The notes under the pieces: model-generated
Seen by the model: the letters and a program-made list of their open reading frames with translations, nothing else
Told to the model about the DNA's origin: nothing
Databases searched by the model: none
Shown: positions 13,111 through 16,009 of the stretch, one piece after another
Numbering within the stretch: position 1 is the first letter of the stretch
How the letters are laid out: the number at the start of each line of letters is the position of its first letter
Program-made: the position numbers and the translations under genes
Assembly: GCF_021431965.1 (NCBI RefSeq)
Contig: NZ_CP090370.1
Coordinates: 2,542,001-2,606,000 of the forward strand
From: Erythrobacter sp. SDW2
GTDB lineage: Bacteria > Pseudomonadota > Alphaproteobacteria > Sphingomonadales > Sphingomonadaceae
Length of the DNA: 64,000 nucleotides
Direction of reading: 5' to 3'

Positions 13111-14057
13111 CACGCGGCCTCCTTTCGTGCCGGAACACTGGTGCGAACGGCGTGGCGCAGTGTCGAGGAACGCGCACGCGGGTTGCGGGCGATTTCGGCC
13201 TCTGTCGGGCGGATCGCCTTGGAAATGTGCGAAAAAACGGCCGGCGGCCCCAGGTCTTGGGGAAGATGGCGGGATGTGCCGCCGGCCTTTCCGGAAGCGC
13301 GCTGGAGATAGCGCTTCACGATACGATCTTCCAGCGAGTGGAAGCTGACCACGGCCAGCCGTCCGCCGCTCCGGAGCAGGCGTTCGGCGGCGAGGAGACC
13401 CTCTTCGAGCTCGTCGAGCTCGCCGTTCACATGGATGCGAATGGCCTGGAAGCTGCGGGTCGCCGGATCCTTCTTGTCGTGCGGCTTGTGGCCCAGCGCC
13501 TTGCGCACCACACGCGCAAGATCGCCGGTGGTCGCCAGCGGGCGGGCAGCCACGATGGCACGGGCAACGCGGCGCGACTGCCGTTCCTCGCCATATTGAT
13601 AGAGCACATCGGCAATCTCGGCCTCGTCGGCCTCGTTGACGAAGTCGGCGGCAGACATGCCATGCTGGCTCATCCGCATGTCGAGCGGGCCATCGGCGGA
13701 AAAGGCAAAGCCGCGTTCCGCCTGGTCGAGCTGCATGGAGGAGACGCCGATATCCATCGCCACCCCGTCGACCTGCTCGACCCCGGCTTCGGCGAGCGCC
13801 GCGACCATTTCCGAAAAGCGGCGCGGGTGAAGCACCAGGCGCGGCGGTTGTTCGCGGGTTTCGGGCCACTCCTGCCCGGCAGCAATCGCATCGGGGTCGC
13901 GGTCGAAGGCGTGGACGGTCGCGCCGCGTTCAAGCAGCGCACGGGTATAACCGCCGGCACCAAAGGTGGCATCAACGATCACGGCGCCGGGCTGCGGGGC
14001 GAGCGCAGCGATCACTTCATCGAGCAGGACGGGGATGTGCGGGGCGGTATCGCTCAT
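13110..14057 (-). CDS. rsmH: 16S rRNA (cytosine1402-N4)-methyltransferase
   Basis: SAM-dependent methylation of C1402 in 16S rRNA. The 315-residue protein opens with HIPVLLDEV, has the SAM-binding block [10 protein letters not shown] (29-38), [10 protein letters not shown], the RGFAF/DMRM segment and the C-terminal [13 protein letters not shown] block. The start at 14057 overlaps the mraZ stop by four bases, and the stop shares one base with the ftsL start. The mraZ-rsmH-ftsL order is the standard front of the dcw cluster. Confidence 0.97.
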
Positions 14058-14545
14058 TTGCGCTTCGCCTCGGCCTCGGCGACCAGCGCCTTGCAGGCAG
14101 CCTTGGCCGCAGCCCATTCGTCGCCCATCTTGTACAGTTCGGAAGGGGTCCACATGGTGAAGAAGCGGCCGCCGCCGAGGAAGAACAGGCCGTCCTCGAC
14201 ATTGGCCAGTTCGCGCAGATAGGCGGGCATGACGAAGCGCCCGCTGTCGTCGAAGGGGATTTCCTCGAACGCATTGAGCTGGAAGCCGCGCGTTTCACGG
14301 TCGAATTCGCGGCCGAACTTGAACGCCATTTCCTCTTCGCGGTCGAGCTGCCGCTCCAGCTCTTCCTTGCGCGAGAGACCGAAGCCCGAGAGACAGGTCC
14401 AGCGATCATGCTTGTTGATGCACAGGATGCGGCTGCCGGAGCTTTCCTTGACCGCCTTGCGGAACAGGGGCGGCAGGACGAAGCGACCTTTGTCGCCCGC
14501 GGGCGAATACGCCTGCCCGCTATATCCTGTGAATGCCTGTTCCAC
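14054..14545 (-). CDS. mraZ: Transcriptional regulator MraZ
   Basis: AbrB-like DNA-binding protein that regulates the dcw operon, including itself. The 163 residues contain two tandem SpoVT/AbrB-type repeats: [12 protein letters not shown] (about 18-29) in the first and [13 protein letters not shown] (about 99-111) in the second. The start is GTG at 14545, since no ATG fits, and the GGGG-rich stretch just before it could double as ribosome binding site and operator. It is the first gene of the operon, with 325 non-coding bases upstream that contain phased repeats. Confidence 0.95.
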
Positions 14546-14870
14546 TCCCCGCCAATCCCCGTTCGAGCACCCCTCGAGTGAGCGCCATCACCTGTGGACA
14601 CAACTTTCCTGCCTTCGGAAGCGCATGCGCCACCGGCTCGCTCCCCGCCTCCGGAAGCGCGCGACAAATCAGCTTGTCCAATGAGAAGCCGTCATAACGC
14701 GGCATTCAGCGGGATTAAAGGGGAAAACGCGGAAAAATAAGGGATTATGTGGTAACTAAATGATTAATTTCATTTTTTACACCCGACAGACTGTCGATAC
14801 TTGTTCGCAATCCCTGAGAAAACCCGCCGAATCCCCTGAATGGAGGGCTGGTTCCCGTAGATTCCCGACG
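14546..14870 (-). promoter_or_regulatory. mraZ upstream region with 10-bp-phased GGGA repeats
   Basis: This non-coding stretch precedes the first dcw gene and is expected to hold its promoter. On the plus strand, blocks starting GGGAT, GGGAA, GGAAA, GGGAT and GGTAA begin at 14711, 14721, 14731, 14741 and 14751, an exact 10-bp period. On the minus strand GGG triplets lie in register at plus positions 14834, 14854, 14864, 14884 and 14894, running into the end of the neighbouring gene. Next to the mraZ start, GGGG runs lie at 14547, 14557 and 14570. Known MraZ boxes in Escherichia coli are TGGGN repeats with a 10-bp period. That these are MraZ sites is inference. No convincing -35/-10 pair was identified. 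Confidence 0.5.
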
Positions 14871-15638
14871 TCAGCGATCCGTTCCCGCGGTTTCCCGAGT
14901 CGACTCCGGTCCGTTTTCCCGCGTCATCCCCAAAAGAGCCCTGAGTGCGGCGGGCGAACCCTCCCCGCCAACCGGATCCTCCAGCAAGGTCGCGTCGGCC
15001 AGCAGCACGACGTGCCCACTTCCGACAGCGCAGCTTGCAGCGAGGGCATCCAGCATCAACCGGCATGTCGCACCATCGGCTGGCGTCAGGCGAAAGCTTC
15101 CGCCGTCGGCCACCGCCATCTCTGCCTCGCCCAGCGAAACGGTGCGCAGCCTGGCCGCTGCGGGATCATGCAGCAATTCCAGTCCCCAGCGAGCGAGGAT
15201 CGGGCTGAGCATGGCAGTGTCCATCGGTCGCCGCGGATCCCCCAGCGGGAAGTCGTAGTCGCCGACCAGCTTGGGATCGGCCAGCAGCAGCACCCGCCCG
15301 CCGGCTCTCACCCACTCGTCGAGCGCGACATTCTCTGCCGGTGCCAGCACCCGCGGCTGGGCCAGCAGCAGGACATCGGTACGCTGCAATGCTTCAGGCG
15401 ACAGCGCATCGAGCGGATCGATCCGGTACGCCCGGTCCAGCGTCGCCACGGCCCAATGCGGCTGGACCTCTTCGCCGTCGGCCAGGGCCGCAAAGGCATC
15501 ATTGCCCGACCAAAGGATGGGCAGGCTGGTCATCAGCCCCAGATTTTCCTTCGTGGCCGACTCGACCGGCGAGACCGGGGTGGAAGCGCTGCAAGCGGCC
15601 AGCAGCATGGCGGCCAGCACCGCTCCGGCAATACGCAT
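14871..15638 (-). CDS. Putative lipoprotein, DUF4350/GldG-like
   Basis: A 255-residue protein with a lipoprotein signal peptide ending in LLAAC (lipid-bearing C16). The body looks like the glutamine-amidotransferase-like fold of DUF4350/GldG-type proteins: alternating strands such as DVLLLAQPR and GRVLLLADP, and near the end GHVVLLADATLLEDP. No catalytic residues are claimed. It starts two bases after the stop of the small membrane-protein gene, so the two form an operon. Family assignment is from memory of pattern and is uncertain. The last codons contain part of the phased CGGGAA repeats discussed for mraZ. Confidence 0.7.
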   Translation of the reverse strand: MRIAGAVLAAMLLAACSASTPVSPVESATKENLGLMTSLPILWSGNDAFAALADGEEVQPHWAVATLDRAYRIDPLDALSPEALQRTDVLLLAQPRVLAPAENVALDEWVRAGGRVLLLADPKLVGDYDFPLGDPRRPMDTAMLSPILARWGLELLHDPAAARLRTVSLGEAEMAVADGGSFRLTPADGATCRLMLDALAASCAVGSGHVVLLADATLLEDPVGGEGSPAALRALLGMTRENGPESTRETAGTDR

Positions 15639-15640
15639 GG

Positions 15641-16009
15641 CTATTGCCCGGCTGGCCGGGATGCGTCGCCCTGCGCCGGAAGGACCGGACCATCGGGCAC
15701 GGGCTCGTCCACGGCGTCCTTGGGCAGGTCCGGCACGACCCCGGCAGCTTCCAGCGCATCGTTGTTCTGGTCGGGCGTTGGCGCCGGTTCGACCGTTGCC
15801 GCCGCTTCAGGCACGGCGGCCTGCTCGGTCTGCTGGGCACGCGTCATGATCATGTCGGCAACACCCACTAGCAGGATCATCGCACCAAGGCCGATCAGGC
15901 CGACCTGCAACCGGTGCGCGACCTCGCCTCCCTTGGCAAGATCGGGCACGGGATGGACCTCTTCCGCCGCAGGGCGGAGCAGCTGGGGCAGCGGGTTCAT
16001 GCGCCGCAT
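15641..16009 (-). CDS. Small single-pass membrane protein, unknown
   Basis: Not recognised. The 122-residue protein has a polar N-terminus, one membrane helix (about 35-55) and a long acidic, Pro/Ala-rich tail, probably outside the cytoplasm. The start at 16009 has AAGGTG six bases upstream; a second ATG nine bases later (16000) is possible. It lies directly before the lipoprotein gene (two-base gap) and after the cysteine synthase gene, so the three may be co-transcribed. A membrane scaffold or anchor for the lipoprotein is speculation. Confidence 0.72.
   Translation of the reverse strand: MRRMNPLPQLLRPAAEEVHPVPDLAKGGEVAHRLQVGLIGLGAMILLVGVADMIMTRAQQTEQAAVPEAAATVEPAPTPDQNNDALEAAGVVPDLPKDAVDEPVPDGPVLPAQGDASRPAGQ

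Follow-up and report, generated by a model that had tools for sequence, protein, structure and literature searches.

Short DNA boxes repeated every 10 bp characterize the described MraZ operators that most resemble the one considered here. In the Pmra operator of E. coli (read in NC_000913), the boxes lie directly upstream of mraZ, on the mraZ-sense strand, downstream of the -10 element and just before the ATG, and their core is TGGG. The B. cenocepacia promoter PmraBc possesses four 7-nt repeats with 3-nt spacers, which gives a period of 10 bp. A fragment carrying these repeats is shifted by MraZ, and in the parts of that report drawn on here, the array is single, it lies downstream of the -10 element, and an upstream probe is unbound (PMC7761207). 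Mycoplasma MraZ boxes are given as (AAAGTGKN3)3 in the sections used of another study (PMC5282649). Beyond the DNA operators, a 5' leader RNA of the dcw cluster exists in Rhodobacteraceae. Specifically, the 206-nt UpsM ends in a strong intrinsic terminator that releases an sRNA, and the sections of that work that we draw on call a long mraZ leader with a terminator exclusive to Rhodobacteraceae (PMC5089854).

Here, we focus on the DNA upstream of mraZ in Erythrobacter sp. SDW2, analyzed as part of a 64,000-nucleotide stretch of contig NZ_CP090370.1 (the window, to whose first letter all coordinates refer). Like the E. coli operator, this locus has boxes with a 10-bp period directly upstream of mraZ, a period shared with the B. 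cenocepacia and Mycoplasma boxes. Unlike in E. coli, the proximal boxes are antisense to mraZ, their core is mostly SGGGA, and a second array faces the first. PmraBc, as described in the parts of the report cited above, has one array only, and the portions of the Mycoplasma work considered here mention no second facing array. In addition, a structured RNA is encoded between the proximal array and mraZ. Our best explanation for the whole, to which we assign a probability of roughly 0.6 from comparative sequence evidence, is a predicted DNA loop closed by MraZ across the two arrays, with the leader RNA as an additional regulatory layer. What is new is a variant two-part MraZ operator together with an RNA element absent from the Rfam library; in the open-licence literature, we found neither this leader nor a two-part MraZ operator described for this group.

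The mraZ gene (14054–14545, minus strand, GTG start at 14545) heads the dcw cluster, and rsmH follows directly downstream (Methyltransf_5 match, 300 bits). Upstream lies a lipoprotein gene of the ABC_transp_aux / DUF4350 type (14871–15638, minus strand). Sequence evidence that the window protein is MraZ is weak. Among NCBIfam MraZ models, the best match has an E value of 1.9e-13 and 50.6 bits, under the cut-off of 162. The Pfam MraZ model scores 24.7 bits, above its cut-off, and covers only residues 95–139 in the C-terminal half. A sequence search returned no PDB match, and a Pfam MraZ profile search of the whole genome missed this gene, so the window protein was used as the query instead. The AlphaFold model, built from 26 clade sequences with a mean pLDDT of 88.5, adopts the MraZ fold of two AbrB-like repeats. 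Every one of its 16 PDB matches at E ≤ 0.001 is an MraZ/UPF0040 structure, the best having an E value of 1.5e-8. The best fold matches are Mycoplasma MraZ structures, which, judging from the parts of the source used here, are cryo-EM complexes on a four-box promoter (PDB 9sz7, 9r4j). Because the predicted fold matches MraZ structures and the gene order fits, the identification as a divergent MraZ is safe.

MraZ was detected in 191 of 199 genomes of the family. Six of the eight match-less genomes were inspected by motif, not by profile, with G025 and G177 left out. An MraZ-like motif precedes rsmH in three of them (G097, G158, and G010), and the other three, all of one genus, show no MraZ motif before rsmH. 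We note that this clade's MraZ is largely missed by the Pfam MraZ model; thus, surveys using that model may report mraZ as missing.

The leader RNA spans 104 nt (14584–14687, minus strand) and folds into a closing stem, P1, and two hairpins, P2 and P3, comprising 32 pairs. Fifty-eight leaders align into this architecture, and RNAalifold returned all three stems from the 58-row alignment. Covariation was counted on 46 of these 58 leaders, drawn from L001–L063 and aligned by plain MAFFT rather than fitted to the structure, 12 outliers or near-duplicates having been dropped beforehand. On the 46-row alignment, RNAalifold returned P2 only, and P1 and P3 were then designated by hand and counted. 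In that alignment, 81.4% of cells pair, versus 72.8% (sd 0.6) in shuffled alignments and 38–52% with slid partners. Two-sided changes occur at 24 of the 32 pairs, a count reached by 4 of 500 shuffles, and the other four of the five covariation measures were reached by none of the 500. A model-refitted alignment of 67 distinct rows gives 82.6% paired cells and two-sided changes at 30 of 32 pairs, figures to be read knowing that fitted alignments lean to structure and that this one still contains some weak or antisense hits. Five rows were left out when G-U cells were counted. Across 63 rows, 324 G-U cells stand against 65 A-C cells, an excess that places the RNA on the mraZ strand. Thus, compensatory changes exceed those of the controls, as in a structured cis-acting RNA, and since the covariation lies well beyond both shuffles and slid partners, the pairing itself is under selection. 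On this evidence, the leader is almost certainly a real structured RNA element.

The leader is confined to a part of the family. The covariance model R1 scores 78.8 bits at 14584–14687, a figure that includes training, the window sequence being one of the 46 training rows. Genome-wide, the leader model has one strong match in the window's genome, and the next best has an E value of 0.009. It matches 74 of 199 family genomes, in 37 of 96 genera, once each, and 2 of 289 genomes of the class, both of this family and one of them the window's own. In all 73 family matches that could be checked, the leader lies 20–94 nt before an mraZ match on the same strand; the 74th is on a different contig from the listed mraZ piece. 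Four relatives chosen by protein alone (L181–L184) all carry the leader, at 45.7–87.1 bits, while L160–L179 were selected for having it and say nothing about its frequency. No Rfam family reached its gathering score when covariance models were run on window positions 13900–15700 and 20 related loci.

In the parts of the UpsM report used here, UpsM resembles this element in being another long, structured leader that precedes mraZ in Alphaproteobacteria, but the present leader is about 104 nt long, and one scan of the minus strand of 14540–14940 found no terminator-like site and no attenuator. On that scan, the leader differs from UpsM, whose intrinsic terminator releases an sRNA. The simplest readings of the present leader's role would be that it shields the 5' end or governs ribosome access. 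Could the RNA amount to no more than a passive stem at the 5' end, or follow as a by-product from G+C-rich sequence? We consider this less likely than not, though it carries appreciable weight: the folding energy of the window leader is no better than that of shuffles (z -0.99), and neither a terminator nor an alternative fold was found in the scan just described. Covariation beyond the controls indicates selected pairing, which speaks against a by-product, while a passive protective stem is possible.

Upstream of the leader lies the proximal MraZ-type array (14711–14755, plus strand), five boxes in exact 10-bp register and antisense to mraZ. The original prediction had placed blocks GGGAT, GGGAA, GGAAA, GGGAT, and GGTAA at 14711, 14721, 14731, 14741, and 14751, and direct reading locates each of them there, at steps of exactly 10 bp. 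Conservation was assessed in the upstream DNA of 91 family loci, to which 23 more were later added (114 total), by means of a model of four (A/T)CCC boxes at 9–11-bp steps with a score cut-off of 11.5. A four-box array located 144–238 bp before mraZ reaches at least 11.5 in 103 of the 114 loci and exceeds 13.0, the best score among about 60 random 500-bp segments of the window, in 89. Thus, this region contains at least three short boxes at 10-bp steps upstream of mraZ, as MraZ operators do. A comparison among relatives, proposed with the original prediction, upholds the phased boxes: the proximal array is kept in 103 of 114 loci, and the distal pair described below in 72 of 103 genomes. In the genus without recognizable mraZ (three species), the 1500 bp before rsmH score 8.6, 8.6, and 6.4, values indicating no array and no better than those of random 500-bp pieces (mean 7.6, sd 1.4); the joint absence of gene and array represents at most one loss event. 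We conclude that the proximal array is very probably the MraZ operator, as predicted.

The orientation of the array is not peculiar to this organism. Forty loci were sampled from other alphaproteobacterial families, and 37 were usable after three without a recognizable MraZ motif were dropped. Arrays scoring at least 12 are antisense in 30 of the 37 and sense in 1. Antisense orientation of the proximal array is therefore the rule in the sampled Alphaproteobacteria. In these loci outside the family, the boxes read TGGGA on the antisense strand. Moreover, TTGAC followed after 15–19 bases by TATCCC occurs in 26 of 37, and TGnTATCCC in 29 of 37; by these counts, MraZ box and promoter seem to coincide in many Alphaproteobacteria.

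The box word itself differs in the leader-bearing clade. T precedes GGG in 94% of 104 proximal boxes elsewhere in the class and in 31% of 68 in the rest of the family, but in only 5% of 220 in the clade, where C (45%), G (29%), and A (21%) take its place. Among 146 distal boxes, the preceding base is C in 62% and G in 34%. The TGGGN identity that the original prediction carried over from E. coli thus fails here: TGGG is not the core in the leader-bearing clade. Judged from the boxes, the operator word has moved from TGGGA to mostly SGGGA in this clade, alongside a divergent MraZ.

Two candidate promoters lie at the proximal array. On the leader side, a possible -10 element, TTATGA (14692–14697, minus strand), would place the RNA start at about 14682–14687, and a possible -35 element, CTTTAA (14715–14720, minus strand), would lie inside the last boxes of the array, where CCTTYMATCCC is conserved. 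In a gap-free alignment of 51 of the 58 loci, CCTTYMATCCC, a GTTA-like word, and the leader keep nearly fixed spacing, a few loci being shifted by one base. The word at the candidate -10 is GTTA in 32 of the 51 and NNTA in 46. Taken together, the conserved words at the leader suggest a -35/-10 pair that overlaps the last boxes. The resemblance of this candidate -10 to TATAAT is poor (mean 1.7 of 6), and a consensus promoter scan prefers a rival sigma-70-like site over it. Specifically, ATGAAA-18-CATAAT (14744–14773, minus strand) lies directly before the proximal array, on its upstream side, and has 9 of 12 matches, with 0.0 expected in shuffles. A TATAAT-like word (5 of 6 or better) occurs at the rival site in 9 of 77 loci. 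With a start from the rival site, near 14737, the -10 would lie upstream of the proximal array, the arrangement seen in E. coli, and the transcript would carry additional bases ahead of the leader. In the open-licence literature surveyed, we noticed no mapped transcription start for an organism of this kind.

Farther upstream, the distal array (14812–14931, minus strand) presents nine GGG boxes in the forward, mraZ-sense direction, facing the proximal boxes. The original prediction listed five minus-strand GGG triplets, at plus positions 14834, 14854, 14864, 14884, and 14894, and all five were found on direct reading. Four further boxes, with CCC at 14812–14814, 14823–14825, 14918–14920, and 14928–14931, complete the set, which is mostly arranged as 10-bp pairs (starting at 14930, 14896, 14866, and 14835). 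This nine-box form is exceptional: each of the window's four congeners carries one or two pairs. The operator extends into coding sequence here: four distal boxes sit in the last codons, at the 3' end, of the lipoprotein gene (14871–14931).

Facing pairs of this kind are widespread in the family. Across 103 genomes, the zone lying 70–200 bp upstream of this array holds 90 forward versus 2 reverse GGG(A/T)N6GGG(A/T) pairs relative to the proximal boxes' counterpart in each genome. At least one exact pair is present in 72 genomes, and none in the other 31. When the first 91 loci were surveyed at 70–260 bp, a distal pair was found in 54 of 62 with the leader versus 8 of 29 without it. The distal zones of the 37 class loci outside the family hold 2 forward and 2 reverse pairs. 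Because it is common in family genomes and missing in other class loci, the facing distal set is a real but lineage-specific addition. It follows that MraZ does not need a distal array in general.

The original prediction also proposed a third array near the mraZ start, from GGGG runs at 14547, 14557, and 14570. The runs are present, but this G-rich region (14547–14573, minus strand) is, from direct reading and from pair counts near the start codon, mostly ribosome-binding, Shine-Dalgarno sequence. A 10-bp pair within 60 bp of the mraZ start occurs in 10 of 91 genomes, including all five of the window's genus, and a pair with 6-bp spacing in 9 of 91.

When a single protein assembly bridges two sites across a loop, the classical sign is a spacing in step with the DNA helix. 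The distances between distal pairs and the proximal array show such spacing. The tests used the 103 of 114 loci with an array score of at least 11.5 and distances of 80–200 bp, with 70–260 bp run too; L180 and L184 were left out. Kinship was handled by drawing one genome per genus, one of the 43 genus groups being a single named MAG. The distances cluster near 91, 101, 112, 122, 133, 144, 155, 166, 175, and 186 bp. For 68 genus-distance combinations at 80–200 bp, the best period is 10.6 bp (R 0.696), and the Rayleigh p value is 5e-15 at 10.7 bp. None of 4000 jittered sets reached the observed R, the largest being 0.499. In genomes fetched later, with period and phase fixed beforehand, 15 combinations give a V-test p value of 1.1e-5, although these genomes are mostly congeners of the first set. 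Taking one genome per genus and its shortest distance yields a median R of 0.725 over 43 groups, and R 0.647 over 46 groups at 70–260 bp. Removal of the two largest clusters leaves 44 combinations with R 0.647 and p 1e-8.

Two other distances in the region served as controls. From the proximal array to the start codon, R is 0.105 at 10.7 bp (94 combinations). For the distance from the upstream stop codon to the array (98 combinations), which relies on crude reading-frame calls, R is 0.07 at 10.65 bp; its best period, 9.7, is weak (R 0.321 versus a 95% null of 0.269). Distal pairs with internal spacings of 11 bp (n=18, R 0.862) and 12 bp (n=8, R 0.836) are phased too, so other pair spacings, mostly too few, are not clean negative controls. 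The phase has an outer limit. Specifically, of 14 distances over 200 bp, only 208 falls within 1 bp of the fitted phase, and the others are 2 to 5 bp off. In the window itself, the pairs at 91, 122, and 186 bp are in phase, and the pair at 152 bp is off by 2.6 bp. Thus, the spacing is in helical phase, as in a looped two-operator system, at 80–200 bp and not beyond 200 bp.

A candidate bending site adjoins the proximal array. A variant of AAAWCARNNNTTTACC lies just upstream of the first box in most loci. The window version, AATCATTTAGTTA (14753–14765, minus strand), has one mismatch to WATCAANNNNTTR, which we take to be the IHF site consensus. Matches to WATCAANNNNTTR with at most one mismatch occur in 36% of 94 genomes versus 7.6% in shuffles; the other 64% have an IHF-like site with two or more mismatches. 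Allowing at most two mismatches, the site is found at a constant offset in 31 of 94 genomes. The genome encodes IhfA (above two cut-offs), IhfB (above one of two), and a third HU/IHF-family protein. A bend at this site would bring the facing arrays side by side, an arrangement that is suggestive only.

The mechanism we propose is as follows. MraZ would bind the proximal 10-bp boxes at the promoter and repress it, a function extrapolated from MraZ elsewhere. The second, facing array, usually 80–190 bp farther upstream in the clade, would bind MraZ as well, and the distance between the arrays would stay in step with the helix, allowing a single MraZ assembly to grip both and close a DNA loop. 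The loop would probably be helped by IHF, which would bend the AT-rich site next to the proximal array, and the conserved three-stem leader RNA before mraZ may add a post-transcriptional layer. We favor a loop because the distances are quantized at the helical repeat and an IHF-like site lies beside the proximal array; a loop closed by MraZ is, on balance, the likeliest account of the spacing. Of the more elaborate operator originally envisaged, several facing phased arrays are thus present and looping is favored by the spacing statistics, while the third array falls away. The looped two-operator systems of the lac, gal, and ara type likewise have two operators spaced in helical phase; here, by contrast, the loop is deduced from comparative spacing only and would involve an AbrB-fold ring protein. 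A fuller version, in which one MraZ ring holds both arrays in an IHF-assisted loop and a ligand- or protein-sensing leader RNA controls the whole division cluster, is doubtful at present.

Other accounts of the arrays must be weighed against the MraZ-closed loop. One is that repression needs the proximal array alone, while the distal boxes, occupied separately, act as a titration or nucleation site without looping. Other Alphaproteobacteria do manage without distal pairs, 8 of 62 leader-bearing loci have no exact pair at 70–260 bp, and spacings over 200 bp are out of phase. Independent sites, however, have no need of phasing, whereas 43 genus groups maintain it over about ten turns, and the two control distances are not phased at the helical repeat. 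We regard independent binding as unlikely. Rather less likely is that the quantized distance merely echoes repeat growth, boxes having been gained and lost in 10–11-bp steps since a long phased array existed in an ancestor, without selection for a loop. In favor of this account, the arrays are themselves 10-bp repeats, and the window has nine distal boxes where its congeners have one or two pairs. Against it, look-alike words occur at distances that differ yet stay in phase: one genus has GGGATTTTACGGGA at 145 bp and at 156 bp, and GGGAAATCRCGGGA-type words lie at distances from 101 to 168 bp in different genera, the orthology of these words being unproven.

Still more improbable is that the distal boxes serve a regulator other than MraZ, for example the CcrM/GcrA cell-cycle circuit. 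GANTC is the CcrM methylation motif, and across 81 leader-bearing loci the distal zone (70–200 bp; about 14812–14931 in the window) contains 104 GANTC words versus 57.5 (sd 5.8) in shuffles. Furthermore, the genome's only PF01555 match is a 380-aa N6/N4 methyltransferase (L195:1159–2301, minus strand) resembling CcrM. Some of these GANTC words overlap GGGA boxes, however, so part of the excess may come from GGGA itself, and the distal box resembles the proximal one (GGGA after C or G).

Finally, the distribution of boxes in the whole genome bears on chance. No part of the genome, this locus included, has three perfect GGGW boxes spaced 10 bp apart, because the boxes here are degenerate; a two-box pair pattern, GGGAWN5GGGAW (GGGAWNNNNNGGGAW), was used for genome-wide counts in place of the three-box pattern. 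The pair pattern occurs 18 times in the 2.92-Mb genome, 5 times on one strand and 13 on the other, and its reversed control 9 times. That the phased blocks are simply chance G-rich sequence in a high-G+C genome can be dismissed, given that 4 of the 18 pair sites fall in the 220 bp from 14711 to 14930 and that the arrays are kept across the family. The other 14 sites are single and unclustered, and we propose no wider MraZ regulon.

The cellular role of MraZ and the reason it forms a ring are unsettled. If our main reading is true, a looped operator would give the MraZ ring a purpose. The change from TGGGA to SGGGA, in turn, offers a natural specificity switch for mapping MraZ–DNA contacts against the recent Mycoplasma structures. 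Finally, with the leader RNA, the division and wall cluster gains a concrete new candidate for its regulation.
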